From: Cyclobacteriaceae bacterium
GTDB taxonomy: Bacteria > Bacteroidota > Bacteroidia > Cytophagales > Cyclobacteriaceae
DNA length: 32,713 bases
Assembly (NCBI GenBank): GCA_016787625.1
Contig: JAEUUD010000016.1
Span: 1 to 32,713 of the forward strand
Direction: 5' to 3'
A model generated the notes under the pieces. That model was not told where the DNA came from. It did no database searches and worked only from the letters and a program-made list of their open reading frames with translations. The translations under genes were made by a program, and so were the position numbers. Below are positions 4,697-29,880 of this stretch, piece after piece; within the stretch, counting starts at the first letter, position 1; every line of letters begins with the position of its first letter.

Positions 4697-6676
4697 ATGA
4701 AATTCTCGAGAAAGAAATACTCCGACGATATATTGAAAAGACTCCACCATGAACTGTTGTGGCCACGTCTGATCGAAGAAAAAATGCTGATTCTTCTTCG
4801 TCAAAACAAAATCAGCAAGTGGTTCAGCGGCATCGGTCAGGAGGCCATTGCTGTTGGCGTCACTCAGGCGCTTCAGCCCGATGAGTATATTCTTCCGATG
4901 CATCGGAACCTTGGCGTGTTTACAGGCAGAAAACTCCCATTCGACAGATTGTTTGCACAATGGCAGGGTACCTCCATGGGTTACACGAAAGGAAGAGACA
5001 GGTCATTTCATTTTGGCACCAACGAGCATCACATTGTTGGCATGATCTCGCATCTTGGGCCTCAGAATGGAGTGGCTGACGGCATCGCGCTGGCTTCACT
5101 GATCAAGAAAGAGAAAAAGGTAACGGCCGTCTTCAATGGTGATGGCGGAACGAGTGAGGGAGATTTTCACGAGGCCTTGAACGTTGCCGCTGTTTGGGAC
5201 CTTCCTGTCATTTTTATCATTGAGAATAACGGCTACGGACTTTCTACGCCAAGTAATGAACAGTTCCGCTGCAAGCAGTTTATTGATAAGGCCATCGGCT
5301 ATGGTATTGAAGGCATTCAGGTAGATGGAAATAATATTCTTGAGGTTTTTGATACGGTGTCGCGAATTGCTGAACGCATGCGAAAGAATCCGAAACCCGT
5401 TCTCCTGGAGTGCATGACGTTCCGGATGAGGGGCCATGAAGAGGCTTCGGGCACAAAGTACGTTCCCAAGAAACTGATGGAGGAATGGGCCAAAAAGGAT
5501 CCTGTGCAGAACTATGAAGACTTCCTCATCAAGGAAAAAGTAGTTGATCGGAAGGATTGCGAAAACCTCAGAAAAAAAATTAAATCGGAGATAGAGAAGG
5601 GACTCGAAATTGCCTTTCAGGAAAAACACCCTGATCCCGCCATGAATCAGGACGTTGAGGATGTTTACTCACCGTACCAGCAAACTGTTGCAGAGCCATC
5701 TTCGGAAAAGAAATCAGAAAAAAGATTCATCGATGCCATCAGTGACGGGCTTAGACAATCCATGGTCAGGCACGACAACCTGGTATTGATGGGGCAGGAT
5801 ATTGCAGAGTACGGAGGCGTCTTCAAGATTACCGATGGATTTGTTGCTCAATTCGGCAAGGAACGGGTTCGCAATACGCCACTGTGTGAAGCGGCCATCG
5901 TTGGTACCGGTCTCGGGCTTTCCATCAAGGGAATGAAGGCGATGGTCGAGATGCAGTTTGCTGATTTCGTTACGGAAGGATTCAATCAAATCATCAACAA
6001 CCTGGCGAAGACACATTGGCGATGGGGTCAGGCAGCTGATGTCGTTGTCAGAATGCCAACAGGAGCAGGAACGGCAGCCGGACCCTTTCATTCACAAAGT
6101 AACGAGGCCTGGTTTTTTCATACACCTGGGTTGAAGATTGTGTATCCATCCAATCCCTATGACGCCAAAGGTCTTTTGTGCGCAGCGCTGGATGATCCGA
6201 ATCCTTACATGTACTTTGAACACAAACTACTTTACCGGTCGGTGAAGGAGAGCATTCCTGATGAGTACTACCAGGTGGAGATAGGCAAGGCTCGGTTGGT
6301 CACTGAAGGCAGTCATTTGTCGATCATCACCTACGGGATGGGTGTGCACTGGGCTCAGGAAGCGATGAATAGCTTTCCAGACATTTCAGCCGACATTCTT
6401 GATCTAAGGACATTGCTTCCCTGGGACAGGTCTGCTGTGGAGCAAACCGTAAAAAAAACCAATCGGGTTCTTCTGCTGCACGAAGACACACTCACTGGGG
6501 GAATAGGTGGAGAAATCAGCGCCTGGATCAGCGAGCACCTGTTCGAGCACCTCGATGCTCCCGTTATTCGTATAGCAAGCCTGGATACACCCATTCCCTT
6601 TGCGCCTACCCTCGAAGCCAACTTCCTGCCCCAAGTCCGGCTGAATAAAGCCATCGAAAGACTAATGGGTTACTAG
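4697..6676 (+). CDS. Fused 2-oxoacid dehydrogenase E1, alpha and beta subunits in one chain
   Basis: A 659-residue ThDP-dependent E1 of the pyruvate/branched-chain type. Residues 1 to about 320 are the alpha half: the ThDP-Mg motif runs from GDG (148-150) to ENN (176-178), and the phosphorylation-loop equivalent GHEEASG follows. A charged linker (about 325-342) leads to the beta half at about 343-659, with LVLMGQDIAEYGGVFKITDGF-like and PTGAGTAAGPFHSQS blocks. Fused E1s of this length are common in Bacteroidota and usually act on pyruvate or branched-chain 2-oxoacids, giving the acyl group to E2. No E2 or E3 gene is nearby, so the substrate cannot be decided. Confidence 0.9.
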   Translation: MKFSRKKYSDDILKRLHHELLWPRLIEEKMLILLRQNKISKWFSGIGQEAIAVGVTQALQPDEYILPMHRNLGVFTGRKLPFDRLFAQWQGTSMGYTKGRDRSFHFGTNEHHIVGMISHLGPQNGVADGIALASLIKKEKKVTAVFNGDGGTSEGDFHEALNVAAVWDLPVIFIIENNGYGLSTPSNEQFRCKQFIDKAIGYGIEGIQVDGNNILEVFDTVSRIAERMRKNPKPVLLECMTFRMRGHEEASGTKYVPKKLMEEWAKKDPVQNYEDFLIKEKVVDRKDCENLRKKIKSEIEKGLEIAFQEKHPDPAMNQDVEDVYSPYQQTVAEPSSEKKSEKRFIDAISDGLRQSMVRHDNLVLMGQDIAEYGGVFKITDGFVAQFGKERVRNTPLCEAAIVGTGLGLSIKGMKAMVEMQFADFVTEGFNQIINNLAKTHWRWGQAADVVVRMPTGAGTAAGPFHSQSNEAWFFHTPGLKIVYPSNPYDAKGLLCAALDDPNPYMYFEHKLLYRSVKESIPDEYYQVEIGKARLVTEGSHLSIITYGMGVHWAQEAMNSFPDISADILDLRTLLPWDRSAVEQTVKKTNRVLLLHEDTLTGGIGGEISAWISEHLFEHLDAPVIRIASLDTPIPFAPTLEANFLPQVRLNKAIERLMGY

Positions 6677-6787: not shown

Positions 6788-9772
6788 ATGTTGAGGTGCG
6801 CCATACTGGCAGTGGTATTTATTTTCCTGGCGGGTCCTGCCATGTCGCAAAACACCAAGGGCGACCGGCCAGTGAAGAACCAACGACAGGTCAGGGAGAC
6901 TAAAGGAAAATCCGTCAAGCGGAAGGAAAGAGGAAACACCCGGGATATTGCAGGAAGGCGGCTTCGAACCAAAGGCACCTCTTCCGCCAATCGGGCCAAC
7001 GCTAGCTACAGACAACCACCTACAACATCACGCAATGCGAGGAGTCAACCAGACAGATCTGCGTCACCCAGGGGTCGTGTATTCTCAAAGTCTCCACGTG
7101 AAAGCAAAGTGCGCGCATGGAAAGGCGATGTGTCGGGATACAGAATGCGCAGGATGAGACCGACAGGGGCAGATGCAGCACGTCACAATGTGTATCCCCA
7201 GAAAGGCCCTTATGTTCGGTATGCAAGAAAGCAACCGAAGGTAAAGCCTCCAGTATACTCTCGTACCATTAAGGGAAAGCGTTTTGTTGAGCATCGACCA
7301 AGGGCTCAGGAACGCGCCTGGGTTGGCGGCGCTGACAAGGGACCCATTAAAAACCAAAGCGCAACGGGGACAGTAAGAAATACCTATTCCCAACGTGGAC
7401 CTTATGTCGCCTATTACAAGAAGCGTCGTGGTGGAAAGGAAAAATCATTCTCCAATCGTGGAGCCGTCTCGAAAGTTCAACGATATTCCCGCGTACCAAA
7501 AACTGGCGGGTCTCAGCCTGGTTTCTATCCTTCGTCTGCAAGCCGCCCGAACGTTCAGCGTGGAAGAAAAAACGTGTACTGGGGAAAGTATCAAAAGAAA
7601 GAACGCGGTGTTACAACGGATATAACCGGCGGTCCGCTTAGGACACGAAACTATAAGTCGCCGACTGCAGGTCTTGTAGGTCGAGACACATTGAAATTCT
7701 ATGGCAGACGTCCCGGTGGTGACCGGCCGCCAACTCCACAAGGAGGCTACCCAACTGCGACGCCCCGTTCCCGCGGATGGAAAGGAGATGTCGCCGGTTG
7801 GCCCGTGAGAAATCCAAGGGCTCAACGTGCGCACTCCAACAAACACATCAGGCCCACCGAACCGGGGGACGGCGCGATCTGGCTTGCAAAGATTTTCAAC
7901 AAGGGGTTCAGAGGTGTCAAGCCCAAAGACCGTGTTCCCGATACACGGGCAGCCAGATACTCAGGCAATATTCACTCTGATGGTTCAACCAAAACGTTTG
8001 GGGACCAGGGCACGGGATATCGAGGCAACATCAAACGCGGGGCAGGTTTCTCACCCGGTGGAGCCGGCTATGGAGGGAAGGCTCGAAAAACTTCGCGGGC
8101 AAAAGGTGGCGCGGGATATTCCGGTAATCTCCGGAGGAAAGATCTGCCCGGCTTTTCAACGGCCTATTTTGAGTTTTCAGGCAACCAAAGGAGACAACAA
8201 CGACAGTTTCCGAAAAGGGGAGTCAATTATTCCGGATTCATGAAGAGCGGCCAGCAAGGTGGATATTCACTGGAGGGCCACAATTATTCAGGAAACATCA
8301 AGCGAGGCGGAAGAGGATTTTCCGGAGATTATGTGGGCTACTCAGGAAACATCAAGCGGGGCGCAAGAGGATTCTCCGGTGACTATGTCGGCTACTCAGG
8401 AAACATCAAGCGAGGTGCGAGGGGATTCTCTGGTGACTATGTCGGCTACTCAGGGAATATCAAACGTGGAGCGAGAGGGTTCTCCAGCGACTATATCGGT
8501 TACTCAGGCAAAATGAAAAGAGGTGACAGGGGTTTTTCAGGTGAGTATGTCGGGTACTCAGGCAACATGAAGCGAAACCGAATTCCGGGGTATTCACGAT
8601 TGGGGTACAACTACAAAGGAAACCTGAAGGACCGTAAAGGTTTTTCTGCTGAGTACGCTGGTTATTCCGGAAACATAGAACGAATTGGTCCGGTAAAGCA
8701 ATTCGAGGTTAATGGCGTGAATTATTCCGGTTTCATGAAGCGTGGCGGGCGCGGTTTTGATGAACAAGGGGCTAACTATCGCGGCAACATAAAAGTATCG
8801 AGCAAGGCTGGGTTGTTTGGAAATGATGGCGCCGACTTTTCGGGAACCATAAAATCAAAGAGACGACCCAAAGGTGGAGGGAGTATCAGCGGAGTTTTGT
8901 GGAACAACAATCAATCAGCCATCCAGGGAAATCCACCTACTGGCGCTGATATCAACTATTCTGGAAGGTACAAGGCGAAGAGAAAGGAGAAAGGCGGGGG
9001 CAGTGTCAGTGGCTTTCTTTGGAACAATAATGAAAGTCCCTTGGGAAAGAATCCTCCTGCGACGGCAGCCAACATCAACTATACAGGCAGGTTGAAAGCC
9101 AAGCGTCCAGAGAAAGGCGGTGGCACAGTCAGCGGAATTTTGTGGAACAATAACGAATCGGCTTTGGCCAAGAATCCTCCGGCAATGATGGTCAACATCA
9201 ATTACTCCGGCCGCACCAAAGCCAGGAAACCGGAAAAGGGAGGCGGATCGGTCAGCGGCATTCTCTGGAACAACAACAACGAGGCTTTACCAAAGAGTCC
9301 TCCACCCAATTTGAAAGCTGTCGATGGCCTTCAGGTACGGGTGAAAGAAGGTGACTACTCAAGAAAACTTCATGCGGCCAAGAATTCATTGCCTGGCATC
9401 AAGCCGACACGGTCCTCGGTCAAAGCCAGTGAATACACACGCGTCATGAAGCAGTATTGGGACTACAAACGTAATCCCAATAGCTCAAGGCTTGCTCTAA
9501 AAGGAATTGCTCCCGGTAAGGCTGAGGGAAGAATCGGCGATTTCCAGGGCAACCTTAAGATGCACAAGTATACCGGCAGAAAACTTCATCCCGACGCCAA
9601 GTTCGCTCATAGCGAGGAAGACAATGTTGACGGGGAGCGGAGCATTTTTACCAACATTAAAATGTTCTGGTCAAAGATGTTCCGTAAGAATGACACGCAA
9701 CCTTCCAGTGTCAAGGACAAGCCAAAGAAAATGCAATACGATAAGCGCGAGAAGGGACTTTGGGCTTATTAA
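6788..9772 (+). CDS. Secreted basic Tyr-x-Gly repeat protein, function unknown
   Basis: I do not recognise a named family. With ATG 6788 (994 residues) it opens with a clear signal peptide ending AGPAMSQ; a TTG at 6746 would only add 14 basic residues before it. The mature chain is rich in Gly, Arg, Lys, Tyr and Ser. Residues about 25-385 hold imperfect copies of KERGxTxDIxG, RAWxG/RGWKGD and GPYVxYxKK. Residues 391 to about 840 hold about 20 copies of Tyr-Ser-Gly-Asn-Ile-Lys-type motifs, including five exact 18-residue units and four 40-41-residue units with KGGGSVSGxLWNNN. A non-repetitive C-terminus with FTNIKMFWSKMFRKN ends REKGLWAY. No T9SS tail, lipobox or catalytic domain is seen. A structural, polymer-binding or surface role is possible but is inference. 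Its stop overlaps that of the convergent osmC-like gene. Confidence 0.8.
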   Translation: MLRCAILAVVFIFLAGPAMSQNTKGDRPVKNQRQVRETKGKSVKRKERGNTRDIAGRRLRTKGTSSANRANASYRQPPTTSRNARSQPDRSASPRGRVFSKSPRESKVRAWKGDVSGYRMRRMRPTGADAARHNVYPQKGPYVRYARKQPKVKPPVYSRTIKGKRFVEHRPRAQERAWVGGADKGPIKNQSATGTVRNTYSQRGPYVAYYKKRRGGKEKSFSNRGAVSKVQRYSRVPKTGGSQPGFYPSSASRPNVQRGRKNVYWGKYQKKERGVTTDITGGPLRTRNYKSPTAGLVGRDTLKFYGRRPGGDRPPTPQGGYPTATPRSRGWKGDVAGWPVRNPRAQRAHSNKHIRPTEPGDGAIWLAKIFNKGFRGVKPKDRVPDTRAARYSGNIHSDGSTKTFGDQGTGYRGNIKRGAGFSPGGAGYGGKARKTSRAKGGAGYSGNLRRKDLPGFSTAYFEFSGNQRRQQRQFPKRGVNYSGFMKSGQQGGYSLEGHNYSGNIKRGGRGFSGDYVGYSGNIKRGARGFSGDYVGYSGNIKRGARGFSGDYVGYSGNIKRGARGFSSDYIGYSGKMKRGDRGFSGEYVGYSGNMKRNRIPGYSRLGYNYKGNLKDRKGFSAEYAGYSGNIERIGPVKQFEVNGVNYSGFMKRGGRGFDEQGANYRGNIKVSSKAGLFGNDGADFSGTIKSKRRPKGGGSISGVLWNNNQSAIQGNPPTGADINYSGRYKAKRKEKGGGSVSGFLWNNNESPLGKNPPATAANINYTGRLKAKRPEKGGGTVSGILWNNNESALAKNPPAMMVNINYSGRTKARKPEKGGGSVSGILWNNNNEALPKSPPPNLKAVDGLQVRVKEGDYSRKLHAAKNSLPGIKPTRSSVKASEYTRVMKQYWDYKRNPNSSRLALKGIAPGKAEGRIGDFQGNLKMHKYTGRKLHPDAKFAHSEEDNVDGERSIFTNIKMFWSKMFRKNDTQPSSVKDKPKKMQYDKREKGLWAY
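8285..8554 (+). repeat. Five tandem 54-bp units (18-residue YSGNIKRGARGFSGDYVG repeat)
   Basis: In-frame units begin at 8285, 8339, 8393, 8447 and 8501, and a sixth, shortened one starts at 8555. Spacing is exactly 54 bp. Units 2 and 3 encode identical peptides yet differ at five codons, all synonymous. Units 3 and 4 differ at nine synonymous and two conservative codons (Gly to Ser, Val to Ile). Confidence 0.95.
8837..9310 (+). repeat. Four tandem 120-123-bp units (KGGGSVSGxLWNNN repeat)
   Basis: Units begin at 8837, 8957, 9080 and 9203 (spacing 120, 123, 123 bp). Each starts with [FY]-[ST]-G-x-x-K, followed by a basic stretch, KGGGS/T-[IV]-SG-x-LWNNN and a Pro-Pro segment ending in NIN or DIN. 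They continue directly from the shorter Tyr-x-Gly units, so the long unit looks like a short unit with an inserted KGGGSVSG/LWNNN module. Confidence 0.92.
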
Positions 9773-10173
9773 AAATCAAAAGTCACCGTTTGTACGACTT
9801 GCTCTCCAAGGCTGAGTGCCACAGGGCAAGTCCTTGCCGCATGTTCCAGTTTTTTCTTTTGCACATCGGTCACCTTTAGTGAAGGGTGAGAAAAAGCTAT
9901 TTGGATCTCAGCGATTCTTCGTGGATTAGAGGCCATGATTTTTGTAATGGATGATGACATCCCAGAGATGTCAATTCCTTCGCGGTTGGCAAGCATCCCC
10001 ATTAACGTCATCATGCAACTACTCAGGGCAGCGCAGACAAGGTCTGTCGGACTGAACGCTTCGCCCTTCCCCTGGTTGTCTGTGGGAGCATCAGTAATGA
10101 TTTTGTTACCCGACTGAAGATGGGTGTCCTCTGTCCGAAGGCCACCCAGGTATTGTCCATTCATTGATCCCAT
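9769..10173 (-). CDS. OsmC/Ohr family protein
   Basis: A 134-residue protein of the OsmC superfamily, which reduces organic hydroperoxides through two cysteines. The first reactive Cys is Cys53 in the ALSSCMMTLMG helix and the second is Cys116 in AARTCPVALSLG, both in the family context. The FSPTDLVCAAL block before Cys53 is typical of the YhfA/OsmC-like branch, so OsmC-like is safer than Ohr. ATG 10173 is used; a second ATG at codon 4 is possible. It converges with the repeat protein, and the two TAA stops share the palindrome TTAA at 9769-9772. Confidence 0.9.
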   Translation of the reverse strand: MGSMNGQYLGGLRTEDTHLQSGNKIITDAPTDNQGKGEAFSPTDLVCAALSSCMMTLMGMLANREGIDISGMSSSITKIMASNPRRIAEIQIAFSHPSLKVTDVQKKKLEHAARTCPVALSLGEQVVQTVTFDF

Positions 10174-10236
10174 ATATTAAATTCAGCTAAATTTACGTTT
10201 CTTAGTTGAGGCTAAATTAGGCCAAAGTCCTTCAGA

Positions 10237-10980
10237 ATGCTATCAGTCAGGTTTTCCCGGTTTATACTAACGCTCTTTGGAGTAGGTCTTTCGATGGGCC
10301 TTTTTGCCCAAACGCAGGACAGCTATGAATATACTTCAGAGTTTATCTGGGGTATCAACAAAAATTCATCGGGAGGTCTCATTGGTGGATTTATTTTCAA
10401 AAAGTCGCGAAAGCTCACCGACAGGATGCTGGAGACATTCGGTCTGGAGATTATGAATGTCAAGCACTCGCTCGAAGACCGCAAGAGCGCCCAGGCGACA
10501 GGGAATTATTTCATTTATGGAAAGAGTAATTACCTCTATGCTTTCCGGTTGCAATACGGAAGGGATTACATTCTCTTTGACAAAGCGCCTCAACAAGGCG
10601 TAGAAATCAAAGCTGTCGGAGCCATTGGTCCTTCCATCGGAATTATTGCCCCTTATTATATTGAAAGAATGGTTGACCGGAATTTCTTTATCACTGTTCA
10701 CGAACAGTACGATCCAACCAATCCGCAACACTATTTCACCAACATCCTGGGAACAGGAAATCTCTTTGAGGGTCTCGGGGAGTCAACCATTCAATTCGGA
10801 GTCAACATCAAGGCAGGCCTTGCTTTTGAATTCGGTACTGTGAAGAGTTCTGTGGCGGGCATTGAGGTGGGTTTTCTTCTGGATACCTATTTCAACGAAA
10901 TCATCCTCATGCCTGAGGCTAAGAATAAGAGCGTCTTCCCAACCGTCTATTTCAGCCTATTCTACGGCAGCCGCAAGTGA
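10237..10980 (+). CDS. Predicted outer-membrane protein, Bacteroidota-conserved type
   Basis: A 247-residue protein with an N-terminal signal peptide (basic start, hydrophobic core, end at LFAQ) and then alternating aromatic and polar stretches such as EYTSEFIWGINKNSSGGLIG and FPTVYFSLFYGSRK, which suggest a beta-barrel. No known catalytic motif is present. It begins 63 bp from, and divergent to, the OsmC-like gene. The tonB-like gene lies 124 nt downstream on the same strand but has its own -7 box. I cannot assign a function. Confidence 0.65.
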   Translation: MLSVRFSRFILTLFGVGLSMGLFAQTQDSYEYTSEFIWGINKNSSGGLIGGFIFKKSRKLTDRMLETFGLEIMNVKHSLEDRKSAQATGNYFIYGKSNYLYAFRLQYGRDYILFDKAPQQGVEIKAVGAIGPSIGIIAPYYIERMVDRNFFITVHEQYDPTNPQHYFTNILGTGNLFEGLGESTIQFGVNIKAGLAFEFGTVKSSVAGIEVGFLLDTYFNEIILMPEAKNKSVFPTVYFSLFYGSRK

Positions 10981-27687: not shown

Positions 27688-29880
27688 GTGCGCATACTGC
27701 TCCTTTGTCTTCTGCCCCTGCCCGCACTGGCTCAATTCACCTATGTTCTTGATCAGAGCATTCCGGTAACGGTCAATGATGTGGCGCTCAAGATGCCCTG
27801 GGCAGGAGGATTTAACAGTCCGCAGGTAAGTACCATGGACCTTAACGGCGATAGCAAAAGTGACATCGTCATTTTTGACAAGACGACGTCGAGGATCAGC
27901 ACGTTTATTTACAAAGAAAGCGGCTATCAATACGCTCCGCAGTATGAAGTCCTTTTCCCCGAAGGCCTCAGCACCTTTGTCTTGTTGCGCGATTTTAATG
28001 GCGATGAAAAGAAAGATCTCTTCACCTTCGGACAAATTGGAATCCATGTCTACCAGCAAATCACTGTCCCTGGCAAGCCCTTCGGCTGGAAGAAGCTCTC
28101 CTTCTTCAACGCACCGACAGGCCTTTTCAGTGAAGTTCTTTTAACAAAGAGCAGCACATCCCCGCCCACTTCCCCCAAGTTCAACCTGCTGCCAGGAAGC
28201 AATGATCTCCCGGATTTTACCGACGTTGATGGCGACGGTGATCTCGATGTTCTCAACATGAGGTTTGTCAGTCCAAATACAGCCGAGTACCACAAGAATT
28301 TTAGCATGGAACGTTACGGTATCCCCGACTCCCTTGATCTGGAGCGTGTGACCAATTCATGGGGAGGCTTTCTTGAATGCAGTTGCAGCAAGGTGGCCTT
28401 TCAAGGGCAAACCTGCGAGGACATTGGAGGCCGGATCAACCATACGGGTGGAAAGGCCATGCTCAGCCTGGACACGAACAATGATGGCGACCTGGATCTG
28501 CTCTTTACGGAAGAAACGTGTAACCAGCTGTATCATATGGAGAATATAGGTACTGCAGCAGTTCCCGTAATGGACAACCTCACAGAGTTTCCCCCAAGTG
28601 CACCCGTTGGCATTCTCAGCTATCCAAGCCCCTACCTTGAAGACGTTGACCATGATGGCAAGGCCGATCTGCTCGTAGCACCCAACTTGAGCTCCCGCAA
28701 CCAGGCTTTTAACGATTTTCGCGAGTCACTGTGGTTGTACCGAAACACAAGCGCTACCGGCACTTCCTCATTCACGTTTTCGAAAACAAACTTTCTTCAG
28801 GAGGATATGATCGAGCTCGGCGATCTCTCGGCTCCGGCGTTTGCCGATATGGATCTCGATGGGGATCTCGATATGGTTGTTGGCTCATATCTTAATTCGA
28901 CCACCATACGTGGTGTGCTTGCCTATTATGAGAACACAGGCACGCCTTCTCTGCCATCGTATCAATGGGTCACCGACGACTTTGCCAATGTTACCTACTA
29001 CTCTCTCTACAACATCAGGCCGCAGTTTGTCGACATCGACAAGAATGGCAGTCTCGATCTGGCTTTCACCGCGTCAAACAGCGGACAAAGCAAGCTGTAC
29101 TACGTGCTCTCAAGCAGCACAACGGCACCGTTGTTCAATGGTCAGGCTCTTCAATCGATGGACGTGCCCATTCCATTCAGCGCAAGTGCCAGCCTTGTGG
29201 ATGTGGATCTGGACGGTCATTTAGATGTTCTTGTTGGAGTCTCCAGCGGAGCGTTGGTATACTACAGAAACAATGGGTCATATGTATTCTCGCTTGGATC
29301 AGATGCCTACCTGGGTCTTGGACCAAGTACTTCACGACAGTATTTGTCTGTGGCATCCGGCGATCTTGATGGCAACGGACAAGATGACCTGATCACCGGC
29401 GACTATGAAGGCAACCTCGTTGTCTACCCAGATTTCAGGACGGCAGGCGCAAATCCTGAAGGTGAATCAAATCTTATCCTTGATTCATTGACTCAAACCT
29501 ATATCGCCCGACGATTGGGAGGAAGCATTCGGCCTGCAATCGCCAACATTTTCGGAGTAACCCGTCCGTCGATCGTGATAGGAAACCGTCAGGGAGGACT
29601 TCACCTGCTGCGCCATGATAACAGTGAACCGCTGAGCGACATTCCATCCATTGTCTTCTATCCAAATCCTGTCGTTGCCGGTGGCTCAATGACCATACTA
29701 TCAGACAGGAGTGTAACCATAGAAATATTCACTGTGCTTGGAGTGAGGGTTGGGGCGTCGCAGGTAATTCCGGGGAATCAGCCAACCAGCTTTCCCCTGC
29801 AGGGCATTGCTTCGGGCCTTTATATCGCCCGATTTACTGCAGCCAGTAAGTCCGTTGGCCACAGGTTCATTATTCATTAA
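27688..29880 (+). CDS. Secreted FG-GAP/VCBS repeat protein with T9SS sorting domain
   Basis: A 730-residue secreted protein. A signal peptide (basic start RILLLCLLPLPALAQ) is followed by at least nine Asp-rich calcium-type loops of the FG-GAP/VCBS kind, for example MDLNGDSKSDIVIFD, VDGDGDLDVLNM, VDVDLDGHLDVLVG and GDLDGNGQDDLITGD. They should fold as a beta-propeller. The last 75 residues (from about 655, FYPNPV to GLYIARF and HRFIIH) are a type A T9SS C-terminal domain, so secretion through the gliding/PorSS route is likely. The start is GTG 27688, 68 bp from the divergent murF start. Ligand unknown; surface binding or adhesion is usual for the class. Confidence 0.9.
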   Translation: MRILLLCLLPLPALAQFTYVLDQSIPVTVNDVALKMPWAGGFNSPQVSTMDLNGDSKSDIVIFDKTTSRISTFIYKESGYQYAPQYEVLFPEGLSTFVLLRDFNGDEKKDLFTFGQIGIHVYQQITVPGKPFGWKKLSFFNAPTGLFSEVLLTKSSTSPPTSPKFNLLPGSNDLPDFTDVDGDGDLDVLNMRFVSPNTAEYHKNFSMERYGIPDSLDLERVTNSWGGFLECSCSKVAFQGQTCEDIGGRINHTGGKAMLSLDTNNDGDLDLLFTEETCNQLYHMENIGTAAVPVMDNLTEFPPSAPVGILSYPSPYLEDVDHDGKADLLVAPNLSSRNQAFNDFRESLWLYRNTSATGTSSFTFSKTNFLQEDMIELGDLSAPAFADMDLDGDLDMVVGSYLNSTTIRGVLAYYENTGTPSLPSYQWVTDDFANVTYYSLYNIRPQFVDIDKNGSLDLAFTASNSGQSKLYYVLSSSTTAPLFNGQALQSMDVPIPFSASASLVDVDLDGHLDVLVGVSSGALVYYRNNGSYVFSLGSDAYLGLGPSTSRQYLSVASGDLDGNGQDDLITGDYEGNLVVYPDFRTAGANPEGESNLILDSLTQTYIARRLGGSIRPAIANIFGVTRPSIVIGNRQGGLHLLRHDNSEPLSDIPSIVFYPNPVVAGGSMTILSDRSVTIEIFTVLGVRVGASQVIPGNQPTSFPLQGIASGLYIARFTAASKSVGHRFIIH

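Follow-up and report, generated by a model that had tools for sequence, protein, structure and literature searches.

What would a bacterium use an exported, repetitive and strongly basic protein of 994 residues for? The question is raised by one gene in a 32,713-nucleotide stretch of Cyclobacteriaceae DNA (GenBank assembly GCA_016787625.1, contig JAEUUD010000016.1), which as a whole is called the window below. The gene lies at positions 6788..9772 of the forward strand, and we refer to its product as REP, for exported basic repeat protein. A preliminary description of the window had pictured REP as a giant secreted protein with Tyr-x-Gly repeats and a special C terminus, outside any recognised family. 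From the results presented here REP is apparently a member of an undescribed protein family spread through one order, the Cytophagales. As judged by comparison of its members, the repeats and overall length are replaced freely; what is retained is a basic, exported protein predicted to be disordered and marked by a signature at its C terminus. We tentatively propose, at slightly less than even odds, that REP is a disordered polycation of the cell envelope, serving as a length-variable charged spacer or scaffold docked by its C terminus.

Sequence features of REP

The REP frame is intact on translation, with 994 amino acids (aa) and no stop. The genome that carries it, 84% complete, contains a single match. 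The N terminus, MLRCAILAVVFIFLAGPAMS followed by QNTKGD, is a typical Sec signal (6788..6847, forward strand) ending in AMS with Gln next, and cleavage before Q21 is predicted by the Q-rule for Bacteroidetes. Gln at +1 is typical of Bacteroidetes substrates of signal peptidase I (SPI) (PMC5837995, PMC10653852). The 994-residue exported protein of the preliminary description therefore stood, and we consider export of REP by Sec and SPI well supported by these features. REP has no lipobox Cys, and its mature part contains no Cys at all, as is also the case for 72 of the 75 open reading frames (ORFs) picked as described below.

The mature protein of 974 residues contains 201 Lys and Arg (97 and 104, respectively) versus 64 Asp and Glu, for a net charge of +137, as well as 143 Gly and 53 Tyr, in agreement with the high Arg, Lys, Gly and Tyr content noted earlier. 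When motifs in the mature sequence were counted against 2000 composition-preserving shuffles, [YF]xGxxK occurred 16 times (shuffles: mean 1.2, maximum 6), the same motif with Lys or Arg at the last place 19 times (mean 2.5, maximum 9), and [YF]xG 35 times (mean 12.4, maximum 24). The repeats are thus real, although the earlier figure of about 20 [YF]-x-G-x-x-K motifs was slightly high. The motifs are spaced 16-19 residues apart across residues 411-609 and 40-41 residues apart across residues 684-806.

Read from its N terminus on the forward strand, mature REP begins with a basic region (residues 21-346; 6848..7825) in which certain blocks are conserved, NVYWGK (residues 262-267) among them. 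Next come the Tyr-x-Gly repeats with a unit of about 18 residues (residues 411-630; 8018..8677), where the DNA itself has a 54-base-pair (bp) tandem repeat of 5.3 copies with 81% matches (8288..8575), and then repeats of about 41 residues containing GGG[ST].SG..WNNN and NYSG..K (residues 660-850; 8765..9337). The C-terminal module (residues 862-994; 9371..9769) is the part conserved across the order; it ends in the signature YDKREKGLWAY (9737..9769), for which the family alignment gives the form P[RK]YDK.E..[IL]W. This end of the protein had been called non-repetitive; it is indeed less repetitive, but one degenerate unit, GDFQGNLKM, remains.

REP gave no matches in Pfam and NCBIfam (E up to 0.05), in PHROGs (E up to 0.1) or among PDB sequences (E up to 1), so that in these libraries neither a catalytic nor any other domain was found and the absence of a recognised family was upheld. 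A Pfam search with 31 REP relatives (E up to 0.1) returned 12 scattered weak families, each in at most two members. Ten distant proteins were also scanned with Pfam (eight repeat proteins, one lipoprotein and one BrxC-like protein), and five of the eight repeat proteins gave matches, all weak and scattered. Among these, the repeat protein of locus L121 (fetched loci and genomes carry L and G numbers, respectively) matched DUF7912 at 27.0 bits (curated cut-off 25) and Phage_Coat_A at 22.4 bits (cut-off 20.8); we treated both as chance matches, as they covered 24-29 residues within the repeats, no stretch passed by itself, and they were seen in no other protein scanned. Titles and abstract openings of open-licence PubMed Central papers held no description of the family among the matches listed.

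Distribution of the REP family

A direct search with REP found matches in 36 of 36 genomes of its genus, counting its own, and in none of 22 further genomes from the order. Across the order, profile A1, made from the last ~131 residues, matched 39 of 391 genomes; A2, a broader C-terminal profile of 27 sequences, matched 63 of 292, spread over 39 of 97 genera and over 12 families, a count that includes REP's own genome and several of the profile rows. The order samples were drawn evenly, and the value of 63/292 is no census. Nearly all of the A2 matches reached the last positions of the profile, where the C-terminal signature lies. In samples of 296 genomes each from the phylum (with A1) and the class (with A2), there were four matches, all of them inside Cytophagales. 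In these samples, the REP family appears specific to this one order. Searching with the C terminus thus revealed an order-wide family, and the segment singled out in the preliminary description proved to be conserved, although it gave no match to a type IX sorting domain. Relatives range from about 245 to 1120 aa, and the word giant accordingly fits the lineage of the window. REP is order-wide, mostly syntenic and fast-evolving, and it is easily missed because the repeats defeat similarity searches and only the last 110-130 residues unite the family.

Conserved and variable properties

For comparison of the relatives 75 ORFs were picked, the distant members by rules; L054, L057 and L069 were excluded, and the 245-aa relative at L193 was missed. 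Two of the 75 proved not to belong to the family (L187:13423 and L195:9928) and were dropped, leaving 73 relatives for later counts. By a simple rule, an export site of the form small-x-small followed by Gln was present in 69 of the 75, and 74 of the 75 had an isoelectric point of at least 9.5, the exception being one of the two non-family ORFs. The C-terminal pattern [YFHR][DNM].{2,4}E..[IL]W was present in 66 of the 73 relatives, and most of the remaining seven carried a variant that could still be recognised. Also retained were an aromatic-x-Gly unit close to the C terminus and a His-Pro, along with the tail P...K...P[RK]YDK.E..[IL]W. In 62 of the 73 relatives, repeat autocorrelation was higher than in any of 20 shuffles; the length, number and spelling of the repeat unit, and hence its period, varied from one relative to another, with the strongest lags running from 17 to more than 60 residues.

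Selection was assessed from nonsynonymous (dN) and synonymous (dS) distances in 13 pairs. The only low-dS pair, L048/L049 (dS 0.34), gave a dN/dS of 0.11, with 0.12 for the body and 0.09 for the C terminus; L043/L055 gave 0.17 at a dS of 1.28, and in the other pairs synonymous distances were saturated or nearly so. In all 13 pairs dN was lower for the C-terminal 130 residues than for the body, and in 12 of 13 (the exception being L046/L058) dN was higher for REP than for the E1 protein encoded next to it. We concluded from these distances that REP is under purifying selection. ORFs that ran off a contig end were kept out of the 33-ORF alignment, as was L056. Four copies with a split, a frameshift or no in-frame signal (L031, L035, L054, L057) were still part of it, and the A3 alignment comprised 31 sequences. 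Note that the broken or split frames of L054, L057 and L035 may reflect assembly error or decay. A separate observation concerns genome G010, where two REP copies with differing C termini (L055 and L056, the latter cut by a contig end) were found in one bin; the second copy may be a paralogue or contamination.

Predicted disorder

The fold index was negative in 73 of 73 relatives versus 0 of 191 proteins from four neighbouring gene families. For full-length REP, AlphaFold2 with 31 sequences gave a mean predicted local distance difference test score (pLDDT) of 40.0, with 847 of 994 residues below 50. A model was also obtained for the C terminus by itself (133 residues, 28 sequences), but its mean pLDDT of 57.5 is of low confidence and gives no confident fold. 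Low pLDDT together with a negative fold index suggests a disorder that extends over most of the C-terminal module as well. REP is therefore predicted to be intrinsically disordered, and its C-terminal module would then resemble a series of linear motifs more than a folded domain.

Gene order and candidate partners

The usual gene order is E1, REP, a BrxC/YtxJ-like gene, OsmC on the other strand, and a gene for an exported protein of 245-247 aa. In the window, the upstream neighbour is a 2-oxoacid dehydrogenase E1 (alpha/beta fusion; 4697..6676, forward strand), a conserved syntenic anchor identified by library matches and synteny. Downstream lie a convergent gene for an OsmC-like protein, identified with Pfam (9769..10173, reverse strand), and the gene for the exported protein (10237..10980, forward strand), which is outer-membrane-barrel-like by eye and had no Pfam or NCBIfam match. 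E1 upstream, the BrxC-like gene downstream, or both were kept at 63 of 73 loci, and neither at 10. This synteny joins very different repeat proteins, for example a relative of 316 aa in a genome (G107) that we take to be that of Cytophaga hutchinsonii ATCC 33406, where E1 and the small lipoprotein gene described below lie upstream of it. The BrxC identity of the downstream neighbour comes from a Pfam scan of one member and was judged real. In 46 loci measured, the longest BrxC-like ORF started at most 46 bases from the REP stop or overlapped it, and co-transcription of the two genes is therefore likely. The window (9772-10237), L031, L033 and some others (L051, L104) contained no BrxC-like ORF of at least 80 aa after REP. 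At L168, in genome G047, two overlapping basic ORFs of 214 and 157 aa lie between E1 and the BrxC-like gene; one has a lipobox-like start, and the two are possibly a diverged pair of lipoprotein and repeat protein.

Candidate partners were tested in 60 genomes. Of these, 30 were REP-positive with profile A1 or A2, and the other 30 had given no match in whichever searches covered them, which for G046 was the search with the window protein alone. The exported 245-247 aa neighbour was rejected, as relatives were present in 58 of 60 genomes, including 28 of the 30 REP-negative ones. GldB had matches in 60 of 60 (47 over the cut-off) and was uninformative. CotH (PF08757), also rejected, was found in 13 of 30 REP-positive versus 11 of 30 REP-negative genomes.

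In several families outside that of the window, a gene for a small basic lipoprotein of about 76-120 aa lies directly upstream of REP, for example at L180:8149-8409, L118:8842-9114 and L185:7785-8081, all on the forward strand. These proteins share Cys-Pro and Gly-[LIV]-[IV] landmarks, and the one scanned had no Pfam match. The lipoprotein profile, A5, was run on 67 genomes, of which 27 were REP-positive genomes outside the window's family. At E below 1e-10 there were 12 matches, all in REP-positive genomes and all beside REP, this adjacency being established for ten by ORF coordinates or gene order and for G094 and G180 by match coordinates only. Weaker matches directly upstream of REP were found in G097 (2.5e-8), G037 (4.3e-6), G084 (1.6e-4) and G063 (0.003), and BLAST identified one further upstream lipoprotein at L194. 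At least five other weak matches lay away from REP or in REP-negative genomes, for example in G052 (9e-7, with a stop), G036 (1.8e-5), G090 (9.6e-5), G044 (1.2e-4) and G045 (2e-4). From this pattern the lipoprotein could partner no more than a portion of the REP family.

Comparison with known systems

Of the parallels considered, the nearest that has been worked out is CotG of Bacillus subtilis, a 195-aa spore-coat protein, phosphorylated by CotH, that is disordered and positively supercharged and whose central tandem repeats, placed between interacting ends, act as spacers; its counterparts in other Bacillus species lack homology yet share the chromosomal place and modular plan and, for the most part, the charge (PMC9765600). 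The replaced repeats of the REP family are much like this; by prediction REP, too, has conserved ends flanking tandem repeats that are disordered and positively charged, a resemblance of plan only. REP differs from CotG in being Sec-exported, in belonging to Bacteroidota, in reaching about 1100 aa, in having its own conserved C terminus and in showing no association with CotH; CotG is made inside the mother cell and is not known to have a signal peptide. No CotG family was matched by REP (Pfam, NCBIfam) or by the 31 relatives (Pfam), a result to be read with the provisos that direct alignment to CotG was not part of the comparison and that the presence of a CotG model in the libraries was unchecked. 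By this analogy REP would at most work like CotG, to which it is probably unrelated, and we do not claim membership.

MORN repeats have a motif of the Y-x-G-x-x-K type, which gives them a similar look, and a unit of about 23 residues. In contrast, the REP unit is 18 or about 41 residues with no confident fold, and the MORN profile matched neither REP (E up to 0.05) nor the 31 relatives (E up to 0.1). As a large exported Bacteroidota protein with a special C terminus REP also recalls type IX cargo; however, it had no sorting-domain match, and its C-terminal 133 residues gave a low-confidence model and not an immunoglobulin-like sandwich. Silaffins and mussel foot proteins are disordered repeat proteins rich in Lys/Arg, Tyr and Gly that bind polyanions or surfaces; they are eukaryotic and unrelated, and the likeness is one of composition and repeats only.

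Proposed role and alternatives

In the role that we tentatively favour, exported REP would remain a flexible chain, and its aromatic-x-Gly-[Asp/Asn]...Lys/Arg units may act as weak multivalent stickers for anionic envelope polymers, with peptidoglycan, lipopolysaccharide or polysaccharide as candidates. The C-terminal module ending YDK.E..[IL]W would dock the chain to some component of the envelope, for which the small basic lipoprotein encoded upstream is a plausible candidate in several families, and repeat number would set reach or spacing. The most likely site is the periplasm or outer membrane: since neither a sorting domain, a lipobox nor a recognisable barrel is present, the default location is periplasmic or on the outer membrane's inner face.

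Several observations weigh against this proposal. CotH, GldB and the outer-membrane-like neighbour showed no association with REP in the 60 genomes. Nine of the 12 strong A5 matches came from genomes that are themselves rows of A5, leaving G094, G180 and G101, together with the four weaker upstream matches, as independent; moreover, in 24 genomes of the window's family, the window's own included, A5 gave nothing above chance (one match, E 0.007), and the lipoprotein therefore cannot be a general docking partner. The AlphaFold2 input held only 31 or 28 related sequences, so that low pLDDT is no proof of disorder. In 11 of 73 relatives, mostly short proteins, no significant repeat period was found. 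Polyanion binding by the chain is deduced from charge alone. Finally, 229 of the 292 sampled genomes of the order had no A2 match, and in two genomes of one genus (L160, L162) the BrxC-like gene comes immediately after E1, a clean loss; both findings indicate that the REP gene is dispensable. The remaining fetched genomes without a REP match had differing genes after E1.

The preliminary description had suggested a matrix or surface protein, and the strongest competitor to an envelope spacer is of this kind: REP would leave by an unspecified outer-membrane route and, through its Tyr/Lys/Arg-rich repeats, glue cells together or onto substrates. Its amino-acid composition, the rapid turnover of repeats among relatives and the Sec signal agree with such a role. 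Nevertheless, the type IX sorting domain went unmatched both in REP (Pfam, NCBIfam) and in the 31 relatives (Pfam), neither lipobox nor barrel was seen in REP, and no secretion partner was recognised at the locus; we give this explanation about one chance in four. That REP mainly binds nucleic acid, either extracellular DNA or DNA under uptake, as an exported polycation resembling protamines or histones, is improbable. It would account for a net charge of +137 over 974 residues, but gives no reason for the Tyr-x-Gly-[Asp/Asn] pattern or for a signature conserved at the C terminus.

The shared plan of charged central repeats between conserved ends could also mean that REP is a CotG-type coat protein with its charge neutralised by the CotH kinase. 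We consider this very improbable, given the nearly equal occurrence of CotH in REP-positive and REP-negative genomes reported above and its absence from the presumed C. hutchinsonii genome. Least probable of all is that the frame is a functionless by-product of a minisatellite. The 54-bp tandem repeat inside the frame, the wide length variation and the four damaged copies named above (L031, L035, L054, L057) are what such an origin would leave; against them stand the long intact frame in most copies, purifying selection, and a signal peptide and C-terminal signature retained across the order.

Carried further, the envelope-spacer proposal would mean that the Cytophagales envelope is built in part on a dedicated disordered polycation, a tether or spacer between the outer membrane and the cell wall or a surface polymer, with a repeat length tuned by evolution, a C-terminal peptide anchor and, in many families, a small basic lipoprotein as its pair. 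Some Cytophagales have a long flexible cell form, to which it would perhaps be linked. We regard this larger picture as unlikely, at about one chance in five. Should REP indeed serve the envelope as a spacer or tether, Bacteroidota would have in it an equivalent of the charged, disordered spacers of spore coats and a testable candidate for a part in envelope mechanics. The C-terminal peptide and the upstream lipoprotein offer handles for finding partners.

Additional observation in the window

Apart from the REP locus, the window encodes a 730-aa FG-GAP protein (27688-29880, forward strand) with a type IX sorting-domain match of 26.4 bits, against a cut-off of 27.

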